Source: Cymbomonas tetramitiformis (Eukaryota; Chlorophyta; Pyramimonadophyceae; Pyramimonadales; Pyramimonadaceae). From it: a stretch of 64,000 bases of DNA. The notes under the pieces are model-generated. The model was not told the DNA's origin. It saw only the letters and a list, made by a program, of their open reading frames with translations, and did no database searches. Positions 1-60,643 of this stretch are shown piece by piece (position 1 is the first letter of the stretch; every line of letters begins with the position of its first letter). The stretch spans positions 1 through 64,000 of the forward strand of contig LGRX02029345.1 in assembly GCA_001247695.2 (NCBI GenBank), written 5' to 3'. The position numbers were made by a program, and so were the translations under genes.

Positions 1-3000
1 TTTGCAATAACAACTCTACCCAGCTCTACCAACTTTGCCACATATCGATTCCTCACTGCCACATGACGTGTCGCTGCATTGTTCAGAACAATTTCTGCCT
101 GTGCCACCGAAGCATGATTATCTCCATGAATTGTCACAGGTTGCTTGACAGGCGAAAATTCAGACAGCAGATTTACAACATACTCTACGTCCCGTGCACA
201 TTCTGACAGCGCTATCAGTTCTGCCTCTGCCGTGCTAACTGCAACTGTCTTCTGCAACTTAGACGAATACATGACAGTGCTTCCATTCAGTCGCACCAAT
301 GAACCTGTAACAGAGCGCCTGGTCACTTTATCTGCAGCATGGTCCGCGTCTGTATAAGCTGTCACTATCAACTCAGCAGTCAGTGAAGCTGGCGAACTAC
401 ACTGCAAAGTCAAACAAACATGCACAGTTCCCTTCAAATATCTCAGCACACGTTTCAAATGCTGCCAATGCTCCTGCCCATAGCAGTGAGAGAACCTGGC
501 CAAATAACAGACTGCTGTCAGAATATCAGGCCGTGAGCAACGTGCCAGCCACATCAGTTCCATCACCAGATTAACATAAGGAAGCTTCTCCAACTTCTCC
601 TCCGAGTCCACAGGCAACAAAGACAGTCTGGGCTCCATAGGTGTCATACACGGATTGCAGTCCTGCATAGAATACCTCTCCAGCATACGCTGTATCAGCC
701 CAACCTGACTGATTTGACACTCCCTGACAAGACCATAGTCACTGAAAGTCAACCTCATGCCCAGCAACTCCACCAACGGGCCCTTGTCCTTACTCGGATA
801 CTTCTCACTGAATGCTTTGAAGAATTCCACCTTCCACTCCACTGATGAAGTGAACACAGTGTAGTCATCCACGTGTACGTACACAAACACCACCAGTGTA
901 CCAAGCTGCCAGATGTAAAAGAGACACGGGTCAATGTTGGACACCCGGAGCCTGCTGTCATAAGCCAGCAGAAAGTTCTTGCTCGTCTTGTACCAGATGC
1001 GCGGTGCCTGTTTCAAGCCGTACACACTCTTCTGCAAAATTCCATACAGTACTCCCCGTACTGTCCGTGCATTAGGCCAGCTGACATACATAGGAGTGTC
1101 CACGTCCAGCTCTCCGTTCAAAAAGCAGGTGATGACGTCCAGAGCAAACACCAATAGTCCCAACACCAAACTGAGCTGAATAAGAATTCTCAACGTTGAC
1201 AACTGTGTACACGGGGCATACACGTCCTCATAGTGCACCCCATGCTGCTGACCATTACCACACACCACCCATCTGGTCTTCCTCTCAGTCACCTCTCCAG
1301 CAGAGTCCAGCTTCGCTTTGTACACAGCTATCATGCGCATTACCTTCTCACCAGCAGGTACCGACTCCACCGGCGCGATTGCCTTCTTCACATCAATAAG
1401 AGCGCACTCCTCCTTGTGATCTGACTCCTGCCACTGCACTGCATCAGGTCCCTTCAACAACTGAACCCATCCTTTCGGCTCGGTCACTCCAACTGGCAAC
1501 CCCGTCAATTTCTCCTCATGAGCTGCCAAAGCAACATGACGATTCTCAAACCTCACTCGAGCCTCACACACATCAACTGCCGAGCCACTCACTCCAGCAT
1601 GACGTTCCAATATCACCTGATACGGCAACACGTGATCCTCTCGTGCCGTAGCACACACCACTGCTGCCTCCCATTCACCTCCTCCTGACTGCTGCAACTC
1701 CACCTTCTCAAACAAAGGATAGAATGAGTTCACTGTCAACTCCACACGAAACTCAAACAACAGCTCAAGATGCTCCACCCGTGCTTCCAGAAACACACTC
1801 ACCGGTGTCCAAAATGTTCTTCCACCAGCACTTTTCAACTTCACTACACCAGTGAACTCATCACCCTTTGGCTCCACGTAGGCACGCAGTTCCAGTATCA
1901 CTGTCGCTGTACCCCCAAACACTGTAACGAAGTTTCCATCCAGAGCCTCGCAGTCGTACAACGATCTCAACGGTGTCAGCATAGAGGGATCCCAGGACAT
2001 CACCAGCTTTCCATACTGATCAACGCGCTCGTCGAACCGGACCATACCACTTCTGACCACCTTCTCCTTGTCCTGGCTGTACAGCAGATAAGCCGTAGAT
2101 CTCTCTTCGTGTCCCACGTAGATCAAAGGAGTAGCCCGATCAGCCAGTTTGGAACGCAGGCTCGCGTCGATGAAAGCGTACGCACGACAACCAAACACTC
2201 GTAGCACAGACAGATCGTACTTCTGGTTCAGCACCTGCAAGCTGGACTGCATACCCAGCCCAGCCTTGCAAAGTCGATTGATAAGATACACAGCGTGCCT
2301 CATAGCCAAAGGCCACATAGTCGCGGGCAAACCAGCAGTCGCCAACATAGCCCTCGCCTTCGTCTGCAGAAACTTGTTCATGGTCTCCGCCCTGGCATTG
2401 TTCTCGTGTAAGTACGGTGACGTTGTCCTCTGCACAATAGCATTGTCCTCACAGTACTTCTTGGTCTTTCCAGACACGATGGTAGAGTCATTGTCAGAGT
2501 GCAACACCAGCACGTCCAAGTCGTACACCACCTGCTCAACACGAGTCTCCTCCTCAAGGAACACTCGCCCAGTCGCCCTCACCATTTTGCGATAGTCCTC
2601 CAGAGCGTCCACATACTCCAGCTTCTGTTTCCAGACATAGAAGTGACACACATCAGAAAAGTCATCCACGTGAATAGTGTACCCACGATAACCTTTTGTA
2701 GATGTCACGAACGGTCCGCCATGGTCAGTGAACGTCAGCTGCCCCATCTTGACAGACACCTCCCTCTTGTCCACCACCTTCCGTACAGACTTCGGGACCC
2801 TTCCCCTATCTGTCGTCTGTGATGGCCTCTTCGGCGCCGCCACCTGGCACGCCATACAGTTCACCGAACAGCTCAGTACATTGCTGTTCCTCAATTCCTC
2901 AGAGTTGACCCCAAGGTTCAACCCCTGAAGGTCCATGACCTCCACATACTTGTCACAAGCATGACCAAGCCTGAGATGTGCAACAACCTTCACGTCCACC

Positions 3001-5447
3001 CTCGGGACCACATACTGATCAAGATACAGCACAACCACTGGCCACGGAGTCCCCTGGATAAAAACACGACCAGGCTCGGACTCCTCCAGCTCAGACACGT
3101 TATAGCACTGATCCGTTCTCGCTGAGAATATCACGCTGCCCTTCGAGTATACATGCAACTCCTCAAACTTCGTCGTCAGACTCCACCACGCAGCATTTGG
3201 CTTGTACGGCACCACAAGCATAAACTTCGTGTTCACGGGGTCCTTAGGAAAGTCCATGAGTATCTTGGTCAGCAGTCTCTCAATGAACATATCGTCGTAC
3301 GGTGGATTACCCCAGAAGCTTCGTCCCGTCAGACAATGAAGAAACACCGAGTTCACCAACGAGTAGTACTCGCTCACCTGCCGATTGTGCTCGTCAGCAC
3401 ACATATCCAAATGAAAGGGCCCCTTCTCAATGTTCCACCTCTGGAACTCGGTGAACTTCCAGTTGCATTTGTCCCTCACCGGACTACTCTTCTTCTTGCC
3501 GCACTCCACCCCCGGCAGCGCCGCCTCCTGTACGACAACCTCAGGTAAAACATACACGTTCCCCTTTCTACAGACGTCGTACTCGCACAGATTCTTCTTG
3601 TCCTTCAGCACACGGTCCCCAAACTGTGCATACAAACCGTACTTGTCCTCCAGGCTCACCGCGGACACCAGATTGAAGGGGGACTCAGGCACATACTGCG
3701 CCTCTACCAACAGCACGTCAGCCTTCTTCGTCACCCGATTCCACAAGGTAATATACCCACGGCCTCCCCCACGAGACGTCGTCACCTCTCCAGCCATGAC
3801 CTTGAACGCCACCGCTGATGACGCGTTCACCTGAGCGCCCTCAAACATAGACAGGTCATTAAAAATAGACCTCGTGGCCATGCTATCAAAATACAGCTCT
3901 CTCTCAGAGTCCACCACAGTTGCTGCACACAGGTCTTCCTCATGCACCGAGTCCTCATAGTACTCCTTCTGCACTAGTGCGTCATTCTCCTTGTCTCTGT
4001 CGTACACACCGTACACCCAGGTGTCCTCCAATACCTCACCAGTGTATATCACCTTCTGGTTTGCCACTGTAGCGACCACCGGACAGGCAACATGAACTTC
4101 TTCATGATTCTCCAAGCTCCACAGCTCCTCCGCAGACACTTCCGTACGACGCGGCCTCGCTGAACTCGATGAAGGTCCATTCTCCACCGTCGCTGCTACC
4201 GCGTCAGGTGACTTCTTCGCCGCGATTTTCTTCAGCCTCCGCGCATAGTTCTCACGAACCCCTTTCTCCTTAGCAGGATTGAGCTTGATGAACTCCTCCA
4301 TACCTGCCGGGTTGCTTATCCAGCACTTCTCTGCAGAATGTACACCAGAGCACGTAGGACATATCAATTTCTTCCCGTCATTGAACCTTTTCTCCTCGCT
4401 CTGCCTCCTTCTGTCCGCAACCAGTGCTCTTGCCACTGCAACAGCCTCCTCGTCCACAGTAGCTCCCACAATACTCGATGAATGAACCGCCGATTGCTGT
4501 ACGACATTCACATAGAAATACTCAGACCTCTGCATAAGCATATCAAACGAAGGACGTCGTTCCTTACTGATATCCGCAACCACCTGCGAATACTCCATAG
4601 GCATAGCCGCAACAGCCAGAGCAGTCACCAGCACCTCCACAGTTGCCGGGTCAAGCTTTGCACCCCCATAGTTGGCCACTGAGCACATAACGTCACCAAA
4701 ATATCCCAACTGCTTCACCGGGTCCTCATTGGCGTTCACCGTCAGCTTGCATAGCTTCTTCATTGAGCCCGCGAGTTGACCAAACACCTGCGGCTCCACT
4801 TTACACTTCAGTTTCCTGAACGCCTTCAACCCGTCGTTACCACAGCGTCGTACAACGTCAAAGGCGTCCCCAGCTGTCACCTGCTTCAAAATAGCTGACA
4901 AAATTGTACTGGCCATACTCGCAGAACCAGGCACAGTAACAAAACTGCCGCTGTCGTCAAAGACCTCTTCAAATTCGTCCTCGTCCTCTGCCTGTGACGC
5001 AGGCTTGTCTTCTGCCCGTGATGAAGGCTTCTCCTTTGCAGCCATGTTGCCATATCCTCTCGATTTAGGCATATACAAGTCCAGTCCTTTGATATCTGCA
5101 ATATCTGACACTTGATAGTCGCACACCAGTTCTAGCAGCTCAGGATAAAACGTGACTGCTGACTCTAACTGTGTCTTAAATTGTACCAAGGACTCATACT
5201 GATTCCTCTCTGTACCCGTGTACTTCGTCGTACCCAACAACTTCACAACGCACTGAACTGTCTTCTGTGCGTTGGCAGTGCTCATTGCACTCGACGCAGC
5301 TTCTTCATTCTCTGTCGATTTCCCAGACTCCTTCTTCTCTGAAATCAAAGCCTGAATTGTCGCTTCCATTGATTTCATAAAACTAGCCTGCTGCTCTACC
5401 AATTCCTGAAGCTGCGATTCCCTCGTAGGATACTTTACGTCCGCCAT
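1..5447 (-). CDS. Ty1/copia gag-pol polyprotein with an extra Dam-like methyltransferase domain (partial at left edge)
   Basis: One uninterrupted reading frame starts at the ATG at 5447 and is still open at base 3, about 1815 codons, so the stop lies outside the window. Domains in order: a gag region with a zinc knuckle near residue 363 (CPTCSGVHSAEKC); a protease-like FDSMA near 520; a methyltransferase-like block at about 665-810; an integrase zinc-binding region near 820-865; integrase core with D908, D985 and E1021 (D,D35E spacing); copia reverse transcriptase with VHVDDYT (D1527, D1528); RNase H with YTDADHAADK near 1700. The order protease-integrase-RT-RNase H is diagnostic of copia. 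The intact frame suggests a young, possibly active copy. It lies antisense and upstream of the GFS12-like exons, perhaps in an intron of that gene. The methyltransferase-like block is not a normal part of copia polyproteins. Confidence 0.93.
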   Translation of the reverse strand, partial: MADVKYPTRESQLQELVEQQASFMKSMEATIQALISEKKESGKSTENEEAASSAMSTANAQKTVQCVVKLLGTTKYTGTERNQYESLVQFKTQLESAVTFYPELLELVCDYQVSDIADIKGLDLYMPKSRGYGNMAAKEKPSSRAEDKPASQAEDEDEFEEVFDDSGSFVTVPGSASMASTILSAILKQVTAGDAFDVVRRCGNDGLKAFRKLKCKVEPQVFGQLAGSMKKLCKLTVNANEDPVKQLGYFGDVMCSVANYGGAKLDPATVEVLVTALAVAAMPMEYSQVVADISKERRPSFDMLMQRSEYFYVNVVQQSAVHSSSIVGATVDEEAVAVARALVADRRRQSEEKRFNDGKKLICPTCSGVHSAEKCWISNPAGMEEFIKLNPAKEKGVRENYARRLKKIAAKKSPDAVAATVENGPSSSSARPRRTEVSAEELWSLENHEEVHVACPVVATVANQKVIYTGEVLEDTWVYGVYDRDKENDALVQKEYYEDSVHEEDLCAATVVDSERELYFDSMATRSIFNDLSMFEGAQVNASSAVAFKVMAGEVTTSRGGGRGYITLWNRVTKKADVLLVEAQYVPESPFNLVSAVSLEDKYGLYAQFGDRVLKDKKNLCEYDVCRKGNVYVLPEVVVQEAALPGVECGKKKSSPVRDKCNWKFTEFQRWNIEKGPFHLDMCADEHNRQVSEYYSLVNSVFLHCLTGRSFWGNPPYDDMFIERLLTKILMDFPKDPVNTKFMLVVPYKPNAAWWSLTTKFEELHVYSKGSVIFSARTDQCYNVSELEESEPGRVFIQGTPWPVVVLYLDQYVVPRVDVKVVAHLRLGHACDKYVEVMDLQGLNLGVNSEELRNSNVLSCSVNCMACQVAAPKRPSQTTDRGRVPKSVRKVVDKREVSVKMGQLTFTDHGGPFVTSTKGYRGYTIHVDDFSDVCHFYVWKQKLEYVDALEDYRKMVRATGRVFLEEETRVEQVVYDLDVLVLHSDNDSTIVSGKTKKYCEDNAIVQRTTSPYLHENNARAETMNKFLQTKARAMLATAGLPATMWPLAMRHAVYLINRLCKAGLGMQSSLQVLNQKYDLSVLRVFGCRAYAFIDASLRSKLADRATPLIYVGHEERSTAYLLYSQDKEKVVRSGMVRFDERVDQYGKLVMSWDPSMLTPLRSLYDCEALDGNFVTVFGGTATVILELRAYVEPKGDEFTGVVKLKSAGGRTFWTPVSVFLEARVEHLELLFEFRVELTVNSFYPLFEKVELQQSGGGEWEAAVVCATAREDHVLPYQVILERHAGVSGSAVDVCEARVRFENRHVALAAHEEKLTGLPVGVTEPKGWVQLLKGPDAVQWQESDHKEECALIDVKKAIAPVESVPAGEKVMRMIAVYKAKLDSAGEVTERKTRWVVCGNGQQHGVHYEDVYAPCTQLSTLRILIQLSLVLGLLVFALDVITCFLNGELDVDTPMYVSWPNARTVRGVLYGILQKSVYGLKQAPRIWYKTSKNFLLAYDSRLRVSNIDPCLFYIWQLGTLVVFVYVHVDDYTVFTSSVEWKVEFFKAFSEKYPSKDKGPLVELLGMRLTFSDYGLVRECQISQVGLIQRMLERYSMQDCNPCMTPMEPRLSLLPVDSEEKLEKLPYVNLVMELMWLARCSRPDILTAVCYLARFSHCYGQEHWQHLKRVLRYLKGTVHVCLTLQCSSPASLTAELIVTAYTDADHAADKVTRRSVTGSLVRLNGSTVMYSSKLQKTVAVSTAEAELIALSECARDVEYVVNLLSEFSPVKQPVTIHGDNHASVAQAEIVLNNAATRHVAVRNRYVAKLVELGRVVIA

Positions 5448-5480: not shown

Positions 5481-5492
5481 GGCCCATAACCT
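5481..5492 (-). other. Candidate copia primer-binding site (half-tRNA type)
   Basis: On the element's sense strand, 34 bases before the polyprotein ATG, the sequence AGGTTATGGGCC appears. It is complementary to GGCCCATAACC in the anticodon arm of eukaryotic initiator tRNA-Met. Drosophila copia is known to prime from an internal fragment of that tRNA, so this is a good candidate. I saw no conventional TGGTATCAGAGC primer site. Confidence 0.5.
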
Positions 5493-5925
5493 AGGATAAT
5501 CAACTTCTACTAACTTCATATATCCAGTAGAAAGTGTACGAACACACACTCATACGCACACACACTGTTGATTGATTTAAACTGATAATGAATGTTTGTT
5601 CGTTACACACAGTGCTTATATCACATAGCACTGTTCAAGTGCTCACTGTTACTCAGTCATAGCTACTTCTATACTCGTACTAGTACTCTTGTGTTCTTGT
5701 GACAGATACTGTATCCATTTTGAATTGATCTTCTGTCTCTTGTAATCTCATTGTCATCATTGTTCTGTTCACCTTTACACATAGTACTGTACTCTGTCAT
5801 ACTGTCATACTGTCATACTGTCATACAGTCATTGAATTTGTCTTTTGAGCTCTCTGTCTTTAACACTGTCTCAGAGTCCACAGTTTTCCTAGTCTGTATG
5901 TCTGTCTGCATACATACGAAGTATA
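5493..5925 (-). repeat. Putative 5' LTR / leader of the copia element
   Basis: By position, the 5' LTR should lie directly to the right of the primer-binding site. The stretch is low in coding potential and contains four tandem TCATACTG words near 5800-5825. The other LTR is outside the window, so the ends cannot be fixed and no target duplication can be shown. Confidence 0.35.
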
Positions 5926-15106: not shown

Positions 15107-17368
15107 CTATTGCACTGTGGCGGCCTTACGTAAGCTTCTCGCACGGGTGTGCTGCTCTGAACACTTTCGGCTCAGGATGGTGCGGTGACCATCATGCCAA
15201 TGCCCTGGCATCAAGTCTGTGATCACTCTACTCAGTTCTTCCTGGCTTCCCCATGCCACTCGGTCTGGGAGATCCCCCATGGTCCCCTCTTTCCTGGCAA
15301 TCTGTCGCGACGTAAGTGCCTGCCATGGATGCTCGCGTCCCAACCTTACTGACCGGTGTGGGCCCACGTCCGCAGGCAACAATATCGTGTCCGCTCCCAG
15401 TTTCTCCTTCAGCTGCAGCTCCATGGCAGCCATTCTCTCCACGATAGATACGCCCACCTCGGCGGAGGCTGCCACCATAGTCGCACCCAAGCATTTGGGG
15501 CATTGCCAGTCTCCTTCAGGCACTTTGTCCAGCGCTGGCTCCAGACACCAAATGTGATAACCACGATTACACGTGTCACATAACAGCATAGATGCCTCGT
15601 CATCCGTCCTCATGCACTTCTGACACGCAAGATGTTTGCTGGGAATGGCTGCGCTGCAGTCGTACTGGTCCTTCAGCTGCAAGTGGCACGGCGCAATGCT
15701 TTGCACCGTGTTTTTTCTCGAAGCTTGGTGCTGTCTTCCAACACCACCACCCCATCCTTCTGCACCTTGACCAACTTCAGAATGGCTGGCTTGGTGGCCA
15801 CCTCCATGGTTGCCAGAGCGTGGTTGCTGTCTTATATATACGAAGTCGCCCGCCTTGAACTGATGCGGCTTCGGCTCGTAGCTGCCGCTCCTCCTATGTT
15901 CGTACAGAAGGGTGTCACGGTGTTGAGCGATTTCCAAGTTGCATCCTGCGTGCACCATGAGCTTCTTCACGATAGCCGCTCGCTGCAGCAAATCATCAGC
16001 CAGAGTCCGCTCGTCCTGCTTTTCAAAGTCCAGCTCAGGTCGCGCGCGAAGGTCTGGTGGCACAGTAGCCTCATGGGCGAACAGCAGCGTGAAAGGTGCA
16101 ACTCCAGTCGACTGCTGCTTGGCTGCATTGTAGCTGAACACAAGTGACCAGAGCATCTCATCCCACTCGAAGTCCAGGCCCTTGTCGAGGGCCATCTTCT
16201 TGAAGCAAAACTTAATGGTGCGTACCACCCGCTCGGTCAGGCCATTGCTCTCTGGGGAACCTGGCGAGGTGACTCTCCGGTCGATGAGACACTGTCTGCA
16301 CAGTGTGGCGAAGTCACCCTCAAATTCGGTACCCCCATCCACGAGGCATTCCGCTGGCGCCCCAAACACTGACAGGACGTGGTTGCGAAACGCGCTGGCG
16401 ATGGTGGAGGCTTCCTTGTTGGGAATCGGAACGCACACGATGAAACGCGTGTAATGCTCTGTCATGACCAAGACGCGCTGGTTCCCAGCCTTCGTGACGC
16501 GTTTTGTGGGCCAAGCCAAGTCCAGGGACCAGCGATACATGAAGGACTTGATCTCCAGCGGTGTGAGCATCGCCTCCTCCCGAGCGTAGTGCGTCTTCAC
16601 CCTCTGGCAAGTTTCACACTGTGTAACCACTGCTCTGACATCCTGTTTCATGCCCACCCAATAATGGCGTTGCCACAACAGATTCAATGTCCGCCTGATG
16701 CCCCAATGGCCAGTCCTCTCGTGGTACTCGCGCACAAGCTGAAGCCTGTCACCGGGCTTGGGTACCAGAAGCTCCTTACCGCTGATGGTGACCATGTACA
16801 GCTCGCCCATGAGCCCGTCCCATCGGTGACGAGCCGCCCTCTTCCTGACTCTGTGGTACTCCTCCTTGGGGACTTCCACTGAACCTCCGGTCTTTATCCA
16901 CGCGAGACATAGTTCGTCCTCGTGTATGTCCGGGTACTTCTCCCGGAGCGACTCTTGTTGGGTCACACTAGCCATCATGGCGACCAGTCTCGTCGTGTCT
17001 GGCAGCCTAGGCAACCTCATCTCTTTCTCCTTCGCCGCTGGTGCCCACTCTGGCGCTGAGTTCACTTCCACAGGTTTGTCCCCAGGCCTCGAGAAGGCTT
17101 GACGGTGCCGCGCCTTGTAACCCGCGACCTCCATGGAGGCGAGCTTCCATTGTCGGCGACGTGGAACTGCGTCCGCTGTGCCCAGTCCTTGCGTGCCTTT
17201 CTGCCCCTGACTGCACATGTGCTGCAGTCGCTGCTCCCAGTCCTGGTGACTAAGGCGTCGGGCGACTTGCTGAGTGTAGTCGCTGGACCTGGTGACCCAC
17301 TCCGCCAGCTGCGCTTTCACCGGCTCCGGTGCCAATTCTGAAGCGGTTGTCACCTTAGCAGACCCCAC
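15107..17368 (-). CDS. Ty3/gypsy integrase with C-terminal PHD finger
   Basis: 753 codons. The zinc-binding HHCC domain has H217, H221, C251 and C254. The integrase core shows WSLDLAW (D283), VDGGTEFEGDF (D344) and NGLTERVVRTI (E379). A GDFVYIRQQ segment near 508 matches the usual integrase tail. Residues 582-626 form a canonical PHD finger, C4HC3, with MLLCDTCNRGYHIWC and GDWQCPKC. Chromoviruses usually carry a chromodomain here, so the PHD replaces or adds to it. No reverse transcriptase or RNase H is present upstream. Residues of about 520-555 read as out of frame: the neighbouring frame gives AILKLVKVQKDGVVVLEDST, and the frame returns at a run of As. The ORF therefore hides two compensating shifts. 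It ends CAA-TAG-CAA. Confidence 0.88.
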   Translation of the reverse strand: MGSAKVTTASELAPEPVKAQLAEWVTRSSDYTQQVARRLSHQDWEQRLQHMCSQGQKGTQGLGTADAVPRRRQWKLASMEVAGYKARHRQAFSRPGDKPVEVNSAPEWAPAAKEKEMRLPRLPDTTRLVAMMASVTQQESLREKYPDIHEDELCLAWIKTGGSVEVPKEEYHRVRKRAARHRWDGLMGELYMVTISGKELLVPKPGDRLQLVREYHERTGHWGIRRTLNLLWQRHYWVGMKQDVRAVVTQCETCQRVKTHYAREEAMLTPLEIKSFMYRWSLDLAWPTKRVTKAGNQRVLVMTEHYTRFIVCVPIPNKEASTIASAFRNHVLSVFGAPAECLVDGGTEFEGDFATLCRQCLIDRRVTSPGSPESNGLTERVVRTIKFCFKKMALDKGLDFEWDEMLWSLVFSYNAAKQQSTGVAPFTLLFAHEATVPPDLRARPELDFEKQDERTLADDLLQRAAIVKKLMVHAGCNLEIAQHRDTLLYEHRRSGSYEPKPHQFKAGDFVYIRQQPRSGNHGGGHQASHSEVGQGAEGWGGGVGRQHQASRKNTVQSIAPCHLQLKDQYDCSAAIPSKHLACQKCMRTDDEASMLLCDTCNRGYHIWCLEPALDKVPEGDWQCPKCLGATMVAASAEVGVSIVERMAAMELQLKEKLGADTILLPADVGPHRSVRLGREHPWQALTSRQIARKEGTMGDLPDRVAWGSQEELSRVITDLMPGHWHDGHRTILSRKCSEQHTRARSLRKAATVQ

Positions 17369-56400: not shown

Positions 56401-59400
56401 TGTTTTTCCATACGGAAGCCCCATCCGCGCAGAACAGGATGATTATATTCCGCAACTCCTGGAAAAACTCTGGGTACCGCGCCTTCTTCTCTTTCCACGC
56501 ATCTCCGTCTGCACACTCCGGACAAAATACAACTCACCGCGGTATACATACAACTGTATGTGTACATCTGCAATATGTCAAAGACATACGTTAAGTGTAT
56601 TGCAGATATGCCCTTTGCAGATCCTATCACAAGCATTGGGATCATAGACGCGTGCTGGGCTCTTACCCCAAATTGTGTCTTTGCGTCCACTTTCAGGAGA
56701 CGTATGACGGCCATGCGCCCGCATGAGCTCAGCAACTTCAGGTGAATGGAATAGCCTCCGGAAAATTTCCTTCAAGGGCCACCAAAGGAATTGCAATCGC
56801 GGCTTCTTCGGAGTGCCATCCTCCGGAGTGCCATCCTCCTCCGCCGCTCCAAAGCTTTGCCACCGGCATTCTTTACAGTGTGGACAATGATCCGCGTTCT
56901 CCAACTCCTTCTCGTACAAACAACATCCATTGACGCACATGTCCACTCGTTGGTACGGCGTACTAAAAGCGTCGAAAGTACCCATAGCTTTAGCGAACGT
57001 CAAGGGGAAATGGGTTTCGCGAAGCTCATCAAAGTTGTGAAGTAGGATCTCACACAACGAGGAAAACGATTTTTGGGTCAAGTTTTCCTCCAAGTTCCAT
57101 TCCAGAAGATCCGCGAGGAGCTTAGTTGATCGCCGCACGTTGTGGTCCTGCGTACACATCGCAATTTCAGTGGTTGTCAATACATATGCAATATACTGCA
57201 ATACATTGTCAATATGTAGGAGATATGCATACTACATATTGCACGTGCAGTTCACTGCACGATATTTGGCATAATAACGCGTTCTTACCGTCTCCCCTCC
57301 GAAAAGCTCCTTTGCAGCATTCACAATACTTTCCAATTGTGTAGCAATCGCTGCTTTAACGGAGTGGACGGCATCTCCGTCGTCTTCTTCATCGAACCCC
57401 AAATCCTCCCCACCGCCATCCTTGGTCTCACCATCGGCATCCTCGGTCTTAGGCGCATCGCCATCCTCGTCGTCGGGAACTCCGGCCTCGCCGCCTTGAC
57501 TCGACACATCCTTGGCTTCCACGTCCTGTTGTGCGTGTACCACCTCGTCTTCTGCGCTTGTCCTCCCGGCTTCCTCAGCATGTTCGCCCTCCTTGTCATC
57601 CATCGTGACGTCCACATCCGTATGTCTGTAGGAGAGTTGCAATGCACCTTCAACACGTTGTCAACATATTGCGAATGTGTTGTCACGCAAGCTTGCCCAA
57701 TCATTCATGGGAGAGAAAGGGCGTAGAGTACCTTAAGGTTTCGCCGCGGTTGCCACAAACTACAGCATCGATTTCTTCAGGGTCCGGTGCGGGTGGCTGG
57801 ATCTGCCCGTGGAGTTTCCGATGTCGTGTGCGGGTGGCCTTGCTCACCACGTTTCCACGTAGGTCAACTCCGTAGCACATGGCACAATCACATAGAAACC
57901 GCCCTCGCTCCAATGTTACGGTGCCCACATTTCGACGATGCATTGCATGGAGCGAGAGCCAAGGATCGGCTTCGCCCGCCGTGTCCTTCACCTCACCCAT
58001 CTCGGTGTCCTTCGCCTCAGCTGGCTCTTCCACCGGAGATCTGCTTCGCCCACCGCAGTATATCTCCCATACATATTCAATATACCGGCAACGGTTTCTG
58101 ATATATTGCAACATATTATATCATGAAAAATCAGTATGCAAGTTGAGGTGCCTAAATATTCGTACATACCTCATGGGCTCTTCCATCTCGGCAGCCATGG
58201 CATCCGTGGTAACTGCAATTAAAGACCAAACTCCAACCGCACGGATCAAATCTGGCCAATCATTTATTGTCGAAACGCTCCTCCAATGTCGCCCAAGGCA
58301 CCGAACCTCCCGCACATTGTCTCGTGTAGGATTATCGAGTTGAGAGTCGTCGGGCAGCAGCGAGCCGTATGTAGTCGCCTCGAAGTTGCCATCGTGTACT
58401 AGGTAGACAACAGTTTCCATACGGATCGGTGTCAAAATTGCTTGATGAGCTTCGAAGAAGTCGTAGGCTTCTTCCGCATTCGATGGTAGGTTGTCTCCCT
58501 CGGGGGTAACGTCAAGTGGAAATTGGTGAGGACTACGTTCCGCGTCAACAGTGACTACATCAATGAATCCAGAAATCCCGAAATAGTACCTGCCGTCGTC
58601 TAAACCAGCTGAATTTGCCGCCTCGTGCGCCTCGGGGGGCGCCTCGCCCGCATCTCTGCACAATATCGTCCCAACATGTTTCCAACATCCCATCAACATG
58701 CTGCAACCATCACGATAGCGTGCTGCAGCATAGTTACGGCTAAAGCAAGTAGGCAAGGAAACATGATGAGATGTATCACCTGGAAAAGCTCTTCGATATG
58801 GACGATGAACTAGTCGACATTGAGGATGCCCGCAAGTCAGGCATGCTACTTCCGATGGTCCCATCTAAAGCATGCCCCTCGTGCGCCTCGTACGCCTCGG
58901 GGGGCGCCTCGCCCGCATCTCTGCACAATATCGTCCCAACATGTGTTCAACATCCCATCAACATGCTGCAACCATCACGATAGCGTGCTGCAGCACTATT
59001 GCAGCGAGCCACGTGAGGAATGGTGGGAGGGAAACCATGCCCCACGAGAGTCCCTTACCTTGCACTCCCGCCGGCTAGTGGAGGGCTCGTGGGTGCCTCA
59101 GCATTGGGCGGCGGGGGGGACTCCTTGCTTTGGGCCTCGTGCGCCTCGGGGGGCGCCTCGCCCGCATCTCTGCACAATATCGTCCCAACATGTGTTCAAC
59201 ATCCCATCAACATGCTGCAACCATCACGATAGCGTGCTGCAGCACTATTGCAGCGAGCCACGTGAGGAATGGTGGGAGGGAAACCATGCCCCACGAGAGT
59301 CCCTTACCTTGCACTCCCGCCGGCTAGTGGAGGGCTCGTGGGTGCCTCAGCATTGGGCGGCGGGGGGGACTCCTTGCTTTGGGCCTCGTACGCCTCGGGG

Positions 59401-60643
59401 GGCGCCTCGCCCGCATCTCTGCACAATATCGTCCCAACATGTGTTCAGCATCCCATCAACATGCTGCAACCATCACGATAGCGTGCTGCAGCACTATTGC
59501 AGCGAGCCACGTGAGGAATGGTGGGAGGGAAACCATGCCCCACGAGAGTCCCTTACCTTGCACTCCCGCCGGCTAGTGGAGGGCTCGTGGGTGCCTCAGC
59601 ATTGGGCGGCGGGGGGGACTCCTTGCTTTGGGCCTCGTGCGCCTCGGGGGGCGCCTCGCCCGCATCTCTGCACAATATCGTCCCAACATGTTTTCAACAT
59701 CCCATCAACATGCTGCAACCATCACGATAGCGTGCTGCAGCACTATTGCAGCGAGCCACGTGATGAATGGTGGGAGGGAAATCATGCCCCGCGAGAGTCC
59801 CTTACCTTGCCTCTTGCATGCCACGAATCCTTTCGACAATCCGTTGCAAGCAATTAGGCACCGGTGGAACAAGTCGAAACGATTTCCCCTTAAAGGTTAC
59901 CGTTGCCGGTTCTAGCTCCAAGATGTCGGAAGGTGGTAACCAAGTCGGCCACGCGGTATTGTCTGGAGATAAATCGTGCGCCAATCTGGAGAAATCGTGC
60001 GGGAGCAGTCGCGTTGGCAGCCACTTATGATGCCATACCGTGTCCACTTCCACATAGTGCGCATCGACTTTCCTGCAATGTGTTCCAGGATCCCTACAAT
60101 ATAATCTCAATATGTATGCAACATATGGTAACCATGTTGCATACATGTAGCAAAGAGTCCTGTGAAGCAAGAAAGACACAACCTCAACGTCGAGAAGAAA
60201 GAGAAAGGGTGCTACCTCGCGGACAACTCCAGTTCCCTCGTAGATATTGGAAGATGTGGAGGCGCAATCCACGCCAAAAGGCGTTCCTTCTTCGTAATCG
60301 TTTCATACTCCGGGTCGCGGAAGCCTTCCGCGGTACTCCAACCTTCCGGGAATATGAGCTTGATATTGGGAGGGGGTTTGAGGGATGTACCCTCCTGAGC
60401 ATTGGAAGGTTTGATCGGCTCTCGATCGGCTAAGCACCCGCCTTGCGCGGGATTTCTCATCGCGCGCTTGGCTAACGAAGATTGTTGTACGGGGGGGGCC
60501 GCCTTCCCTTGGACGAGGGCGGCGGCTCTAGCCGAAGGCAAGCCGGTTCGATGTCGCTCCGCATCACTTGGTGATGATGATTGAGGGGATCGTTCATGGC
60601 GAGGTCGCTTTTCACCATGAACAATTTGATCTCCTCGGACCAT
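53497..60643 (-). CDS. CACTA Tnp2-type transposase with C-terminal PHD finger (complete, 16 exons)
   Basis: Exons: 60643-60216, 60072-59806, 59667-59557, 59418-59308, 59169-59059, 58920-58780, 58655-58170, 58040-57732, 57625-57289, 57147-56667, 56508-56023, 55905-55579, 55495-55134, 55045-54549, 54429-54130 and 53995-53497. They total 5253 nt (1750 residues), all in phase with GT-AG ends. Tnp2 marks: DMCVNGCCLYEKELENADHC (about 837), PLKEIFRRLFHSPEVAELM, then CADGASVWKN (D956) and GVIMDYKG (D1044) in the core, and YAFESMNGKLARW (E1373) in the DUF4218-like part. A DUF4216-like GGVLYTFLKCDW follows. The last 45 residues are a C4HC3 PHD finger (CGKCRVGGELLLC ... HVRC ... WYCRKC). An upstream zinc-finger-like FLCDCAMC...RHRKLH lies near 610. 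The D, D, E assignment is by position only. Confidence 0.9.
58780..59667 (-). repeat. Tandem exon-intron duplication in the transposase gene (249-bp unit)
   Basis: Acceptors at 59667, 59418, 59169 and 58920 are exactly 249 bases apart. Each unit holds a 111-base exon (37 codons, DAGEAPPEAHEA then QSKESPPPPNAEAP) and a 138-base intron with identical splice sites. The exon is phase-symmetric, so copies can be added or lost without a frameshift. A further, diverged acceptor with the same DAGEAPPEAHEA start is at 58655. The 345-codon + strand ORF here is a shadow. Confidence 0.92.

Follow-up and report, generated by a model that had tools for sequence, protein, structure and literature searches.

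The 64,000-nucleotide stretch analysed here (the window: positions 1 to 64,000 of contig LGRX02029345.1, assembly GCA_001247695.2, from the green alga Cymbomonas tetramitiformis) begins at a contig end that holds most of one Ty1/copia long terminal repeat (LTR) retrotransposon, whose polyprotein carries an extra domain between protease and integrase. Profile matches, tblastn, predicted fold and motif conservation support the assignment of this domain as a Dam-like N6-adenine methyltransferase. The METHYLTRANSFERASE is real, and the Dam likeness within the copia frame exceeds what chance would give. An earlier note, made from the letters of this DNA alone, had proposed such a domain in this place within an intact frame and had pointed to two motifs. 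All of this held up: the frame is free of stops over 1815 amino acids (aa), both motifs sit at the residues given for them, and the domain is recognised between protease and integrase. Its features within the frame are as follows.

2988..3530, minus strand: Dam-like N6-adenine methyltransferase domain with margins, residues 640-820, based on PF05869, the structure model and the ratio of nonsynonymous to synonymous substitution rates (dN/dS)
Minus strand, same frame: Dam-like PF05869 match at residues 668-764, from the Pfam scan of the whole frame
3393..3413, minus strand: HLDMCAD, residues 679-685, motif-I-like, its D and A matching conserved columns of phage Dam
3291..3317, minus strand: FWGNPPYDD, residues 711-719, catalytic motif IV of the NPPY type

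The whole frame scores 30.6 bits with PF05869 (gathering score 28.1) and the 181-aa piece that spans the domain 35.9 bits on its own (E 7.6e-9), and this piece also matches PHROG 111 'DNA methyltransferase' (E 3.2e-6). Profile-profile comparison gives phage Dam likeness a probability of 85.7 (E 5.5e-6). With TIGR01712, the phage N6A equivalog, the score is 27.1 bits, which at a cut-off of 97.05 leaves the domain outside that equivalog. The window domain has both the (D/N)PP(Y/F) catalytic motif and the motif-I-like D..A...N of Dam proteins, and N75 and P77 of the domain motif are invariant in our alignment A4. When the 181-aa piece was run by tblastn against 50,697 phage records (E <= 1), 56 matched, and the 20 matches listed (E from 3e-4, the best among them, to 0.7; 23-27% identity) all fall under genes annotated as methyltransferases. 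A hidden Markov model (HMM) built from phages only (80 Dam loci from viral contigs, found with one phage gene, of which 20 were aligned) scored the window piece at 22.6 bits, against at most 9.8 in 5000 shuffles, and gave 17.4 bits to P0002, a full-length twin of the element's protein, and lower scores to two diverged proteins (P0017 15.1, P0018 12.9). The earlier note would have withdrawn its proposal if a methyltransferase profile match and a methyltransferase fold were both lacking, and both are present. Other searches were less informative: PADLOC on the domain (E 0.05) told us nothing, scans of viral contigs with the copia domain and with the copia reverse transcriptase (RT), as well as a scan of genome contigs, returned nothing useful, tblastn of P0022, a protein of the metagenomic group described below, against phages found no match, and a profile search for free-standing relatives ended with 2 of 741 candidates, both of them copia fragments.

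The element family has amplified recently, and purifying selection holds the Dam-like domain about as strongly as RT and integrase. A search for copies in the same genome, which the earlier note had suggested as a check, found at least 150 copies of the domain (150 of 7128 candidates were scored), 69 of which, including that of the window, are identical across 181 aa. All 150 scored copies match 179-181 of the 181 residues at 88-100% identity; a stop interrupts the domain in one and in none of the other 149, which rules out a pseudogene. Calculated from 21 sequences for the domain (the window and copies L031-L050; 200 of 210 pairs with dS > 0.05) and from 11 for the other parts (10 for RNase H), excluding codons with gaps or stops and using pairs that are not independent, dN/dS is 0.103 for the domain, 0.107 for RT and 0.086 for pre-integrase plus integrase, the values elsewhere being 0.181 (gag), 0.138 (protease/linker), 0.255 (integrase-RT linker) and 0.066 (RNase H). 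Comparison of the window with each of six diverged copies gave 0.07-0.17 for the domain, 0.10-0.15 for RT and 0.07-0.10 for integrase. WGNPPY is present in all 47 distinct copies among L001-L050 (L031-L033 repeat L001, L004 and L007), 30 of which had been returned as identical and 17 of which had not been picked for identity, and among the Cymbomonas-like proteins from databases NPPY is present in 14 of the 17 whose motif is complete (P0019 begins inside it). The closest database protein, CYMTET_2561, shows 100% identity across the domain. Two EukProt proteins, P0014 and P0025, closely resemble the Cymbomonas sequences, may come from the same species and were not counted as a second host. P0011, named 'heat shock protein 90-associated' by NCBI in C. 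tetramitiformis, joins an HSP90 piece (PF00183) to the gag, protease and Dam domain of the element, which would reflect either an element inserted in or next to an HSP90 gene or a faulty gene model.

As for the element itself, Pfam finds in the whole 1815-aa frame the order Pol_BBD, Dam, rve, SH3_retrovirus, RVT_2, which is the copia Gag-Pol order plus one extra domain; Pol_BBD, in the protease region, scores 17.4 bits and is under its cut-off. The element belongs to Ty1/copia by its RVT_2, its integrase upstream of RT and its single polyprotein, as well as by the direct LTRs and short target-site duplications of family copies. Its 3' end is lost, and the remaining parts are listed below.

3..5447, minus strand: copia Gag-Pol frame, 1815 aa, stop-free, cut by the contig start
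Minus strand, same frame: gag, then a protease-like region at residues 519-602
Minus strand, same frame: integrase (rve), residues 925-1012, Pfam 19.9 bits, below the cut-off of 32.6
Minus strand, same frame: SH3_retrovirus, residues 1074-1142, Pfam 63.4 bits, far over the cut-off
Minus strand, same frame: RVT_2, residues 1362-1605, Pfam 110.9 bits, far over the cut-off
Minus strand, same frame: RNase H region after RVT_2, assigned by position
5481..5491, minus strand: primer-binding-site-like GGTTATGGGCC, directly inside the 5' LTR, identified by sequence
5492..5891, minus strand: 5' LTR, 95.6% identical to the LTR of copy L031, with ends TAGGA...TCCTA

The window, at its contig end, carries this single LTR. 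We take GGTTATGGGCC to fit initiator tRNA-Met at its anticodon stem-loop, as is the case in copia elements that use a half tRNA as primer. LTRs and target duplications were examined in ten loci of 8-10 kb, and eight have LTR pairs of about 365-445 bp that are 93.0 to 100% identical (the pair of L040 is partial, none was found in L039, and the 5' LTR copy of L034 is longer). A perfect 5-bp target duplication flanks six of the seven copies of which both ends were seen (CCCCC, within a run of C, CCGCG, CTGTG, CTCGG, CGTGG and CAGGG), L035 being the one without. The 10-kb stretch of L040 holds two element copies head to head. At residues 520-525 of the protease-like region the window frame reads DSMA, and the metagenomic proteins P0021-P0024 described below have DSGA, the usual copia protease motif.

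The same arrangement is found in a second, distant group of copia elements, from metagenomes (group 2). The first protein search returned one metagenome protein of 35% identity, P0020, and a search with P0020 returned four more, P0021-P0024, on ENA contigs of 4.6-6.5 kb. These are copia polyproteins with the same domain order and a Dam-like region at the same place; among the four that were scanned (P0021-P0024), Pol_BBD is over its cut-off in all, rve is over it in one and under it in three, and RVT_2 is present in three. Their domain reads YANPPF at the catalytic motif, NPPF being kept in all five proteins, and its end, RVFIQGTPWPV, is common to both groups. Identity of P0022 and P0024 to P0002 is 35 and 28% for the domain, 26 and 28% for integrase, 26 and 26% for RT, 31 and 34% for RNase H and 27 and 28% for the protease region, gag being unalignable; the domain's conservation among the group 2 proteins is similar to that of integrase and RT, P0024 (77 vs 89% for integrase) being the exception. 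In an alignment built with phage rows, which favours such counts, the phage residue is kept by the Cymbomonas group at 16 of 39 phage-conserved columns vs 11 of 107 others (Fisher p 7e-5) and by group 2 at 10 of 39 vs 11 of 107 (p 0.02); agreement between the two groups is not significantly higher at phage-conserved columns than elsewhere (16/39 vs 29/107, Fisher p 0.08). Because of the many copies, the low dN/dS and the same-place domain in a distant group, the Dam-like domain is an old component, maintained by selection, of a copia lineage. The simplest reading is a single capture before both lineages split, and alternatively capture in one lineage may have been followed by transfer to the other. 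The earlier note had conceded that its proposal would fall if the region were a usual part of related copia polyproteins with another role: related copia elements do carry it, and nothing that we saw points to another role. By eye, hydrophobic stretches that resemble membrane spans lie between gag and protease in P0021, P0022, P0024 and P0026, and the Cymbomonas elements seem to be without them.

What could such a domain do for its element? The explanation that we favour, and to which we give an even chance, is that a phage-type Dam-like methyltransferase, captured between the protease and the N-terminal part of the integrase, methylates adenines of the element's own complementary DNA (cDNA), whereby new copies escape silencing. 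The domain would be catalytically active, as suggested by the retention of NPPY/NPPF and of motif-I D/E..A...N, and that it may mark cDNA, as the earlier note suggested, is plausible. Because some 15 residues separate its last predicted strand (about residue 809) from the HHCC-like integrase finger that follows (from residue 824, by eye), the domain would be joined to the integrase before any cleavage, and both would be made and packaged together. A methyltransferase so placed could have access to the cDNA within the particle as well as to the site of insertion, adenines of the cDNA would be methylated before or at integration, and new copies would be born with N6-methyladenine (6mA) and thus escape or delay silencing, which is the likely benefit; protection of the cDNA from host nucleases is a second possible one. 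In many unicellular eukaryotes 6mA marks transcriptionally permissive chromatin; a paper on 6mA, which makes no mention of Cymbomonas, also refers to it as a proposed transposon silencer in animals. A broader version, in which an ancient copia lineage with prasinophyte and metagenomic hosts took up the adenine methyltransferase once, kept it beside the integrase and writes 6mA on each new copy as a self-made anti-silencing mark, by which the host would take the insertion for active chromatin, is tentative and on balance unlikely.

Several results weigh against an active DNA methyltransferase that shields new copies. The structure model (fold at about residues 660-815) is that of an N6-adenine methyltransferase, nearest to CAPAM/PCIF1 and phage Dam, and its predicted local distance difference test (pLDDT) score of 83.7 was reached with phage rows in the alignment, which makes the likeness to phage Dam not fully independent; the best solved structural match is CAPAM, an RNA enzyme and not a DNA one, and a model from copia rows only is poor (pLDDT 56.4), though CAPAM is still at the top (E 0.01). 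The diverged Cymbomonas proteins P0017 (26.6 bits) and P0018 (23.0) are under the PF05869 cut-off, the Pfam scan gave no Dam (PF05869) match at E <= 1 in P0021-P0024, the phage-only HMM matched none of P0020-P0024, and the combined profile, run by hmmsearch on PDB sequences, led to Mediator subunit 31 (3e-5), KsgA reaching no better than 0.36. Three of the 17 complete Cymbomonas-like motifs are altered (NPLY in P0005, IPPY in P0011 and NMPY in P0017), and in group 2 the motif-I D is replaced by E.

The structural match raises the question of an RNA substrate, in other words whether the domain is of the CAPAM/PCIF1 type and methylates N6 of adenosine in the element's own mRNA (e.g. of the cap-adjacent adenosine), aiding its stability, translation or packaging, which we consider unlikely. 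CAPAM/PCIF1, a cap-specific adenosine N6-methyltransferase, has the N6-adenine chemistry in common with Dam enzymes, and such a substrate would be allowed by the fold and by weak profile matches: of the four group 2 proteins that were scanned, three have PCIF1_WW as their nearest family (best E 0.0027 with whole proteins, and 9.7e-5 among nine A1 pieces). However, the window domain scores 35.9 bits with PF05869 and only 12.3 with PCIF1_WW (PF12237, P0001), below the cut-off of 31.1, CAPAM chains are much longer (467-494 residues vs about 155 in the copia domain), and the place beside the integrase would favour a step on DNA. Slightly less probable still is a loss of catalysis that would have left a nucleic-acid-binding or structural module of the polyprotein; the three altered motifs and the E of group 2 fit it, and degenerate Dam-like domains do occur in DIRS elements, but the invariance of NPPF in group 2 and of WGNPPY in the distinct Cymbomonas copies, together with a dN/dS like that of RT and integrase, argues against it.

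A methyltransferase aimed at host or invading DNA, for instance as a weapon against algal DNA viruses, is improbable. This role has been hypothesised for retrotransposon methylases in general (PMC6338049), and endogenous giant-virus and Polinton-like sequences are numerous in the Cymbomonas genome (PMC10675990), but the Gag-Pol fusion ties the enzyme to the particle, and no separate expression was seen, although no search for it was made. That the likeness is fortuitous, or that the region is an ordinary copia linker without enzymatic origin, is very improbable: identity to phage Dam is only 15-23% in alignments, and PDB sequence searches, with the single sequence or with profiles, yielded no useful E-value for any methyltransferase, but a curated profile over its cut-off, phage tblastn, shuffles, fold and selection refute this in the main. 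Chance similarity is ruled out by the profiles, tblastn, shuffles and fold, and a linker by the domain dN/dS of 0.103 vs 0.255 for the integrase-RT linker.

Why retrotransposons carry cytosine methyltransferases or, in DIRS elements, Dam-like domains is a standing question, which here extends to an LTR element that has a DDE-type integrase and belongs to a family of dozens of nearly identical copies. DIRS1-like tyrosine-recombinase retrotransposons likewise have a PF05869 N6-adenine methyltransferase domain in their polyprotein (PMC3783388, PMC3266345), the role of which is stated as unknown (PMC3266345). Compared by description, however, DIRS elements have the order RT-RNase H-methyltransferase, a tyrosine recombinase and inverted or split repeats, without protease or DDE integrase, whereas in the copia element the methyltransferase precedes an integrase of the DDE type and RVT_2, and there are LTRs and 5-bp target duplications; no recombinase family was found by Pfam in the frame as cut by the contig end, and the presence of integrase and RVT_2 downstream of the methyltransferase also sets it apart. 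SymbioLINE-Dnmt, SymbioDIRS-Dnmt3 and KnitGypsy-Dnmt3, the last with reported purifying selection, are likewise retrotransposons with a captured DNA methyltransferase (DNMT), but of the cytosine, not adenine, type and in LINE (long interspersed nuclear element), DIRS and gypsy elements, and that article describes Symbiodinium copia elements as without any DNMT domain (PMC5890265). Phage N-6-adenine methyltransferases (PF05869, PHROG 111, TIGR01712) share D..A...N, NPPY, the W and G..F positions and the predicted fold, but their genes are free-standing (181-217 aa in the four viewed), and the copia domain is 15-23% identical to them and under the TIGR01712 cut-off. Algal DNA transposons such as Sola1-1_Ec32 likewise bring their own methyltransferase, a ParB-methyltransferase accessory protein of N4-C or N6-A type that is proposed to mark the transposon's own sequence (PMC12477816).

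Among the papers listed by our searches of the open literature, we saw none that describes a copia element with a Dam domain, Repbase reports and subscription journals being outside this scope. An opinion article mentions DAM and DCM for gypsy and DIRS clades, the word copia being absent from its text (PMC6338049). The same word is absent from both Cymbomonas genome papers (2015 and 2023); that of 2023 has neither 'methyltransferase' nor 'Dam', and that of 2015, which reports a cytosine methyltransferase on a high-coverage scaffold, does not contain 'adenine'. Nanopore reads of C. tetramitiformis were made (PMC10675990). Should young copies carry 6mA, this would clearly exemplify a retroelement that puts an activating mark on itself and, if self-marking is true, the adenine counterpart of DNMT-carrying retrotransposons; should RNA be the target, it would be a retroelement with its own mRNA methylase.

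Two other frames in the window deserve mention. At 58820-59857 on the plus strand, a 345-aa frame has a sub-threshold match to the thiamin pyrophosphokinase C-terminal domain (25.9 vs 27 bits) and is possibly an exon of a host gene. The frame at 15107-17368 on the minus strand encodes an integrase of the Ty3/gypsy type, which matches Integrase_H2C2 at 66.5 bits and rve at 34.5; a PHD finger (41.2 bits) follows downstream, at the position that the chromodomain occupies in chromoviruses.

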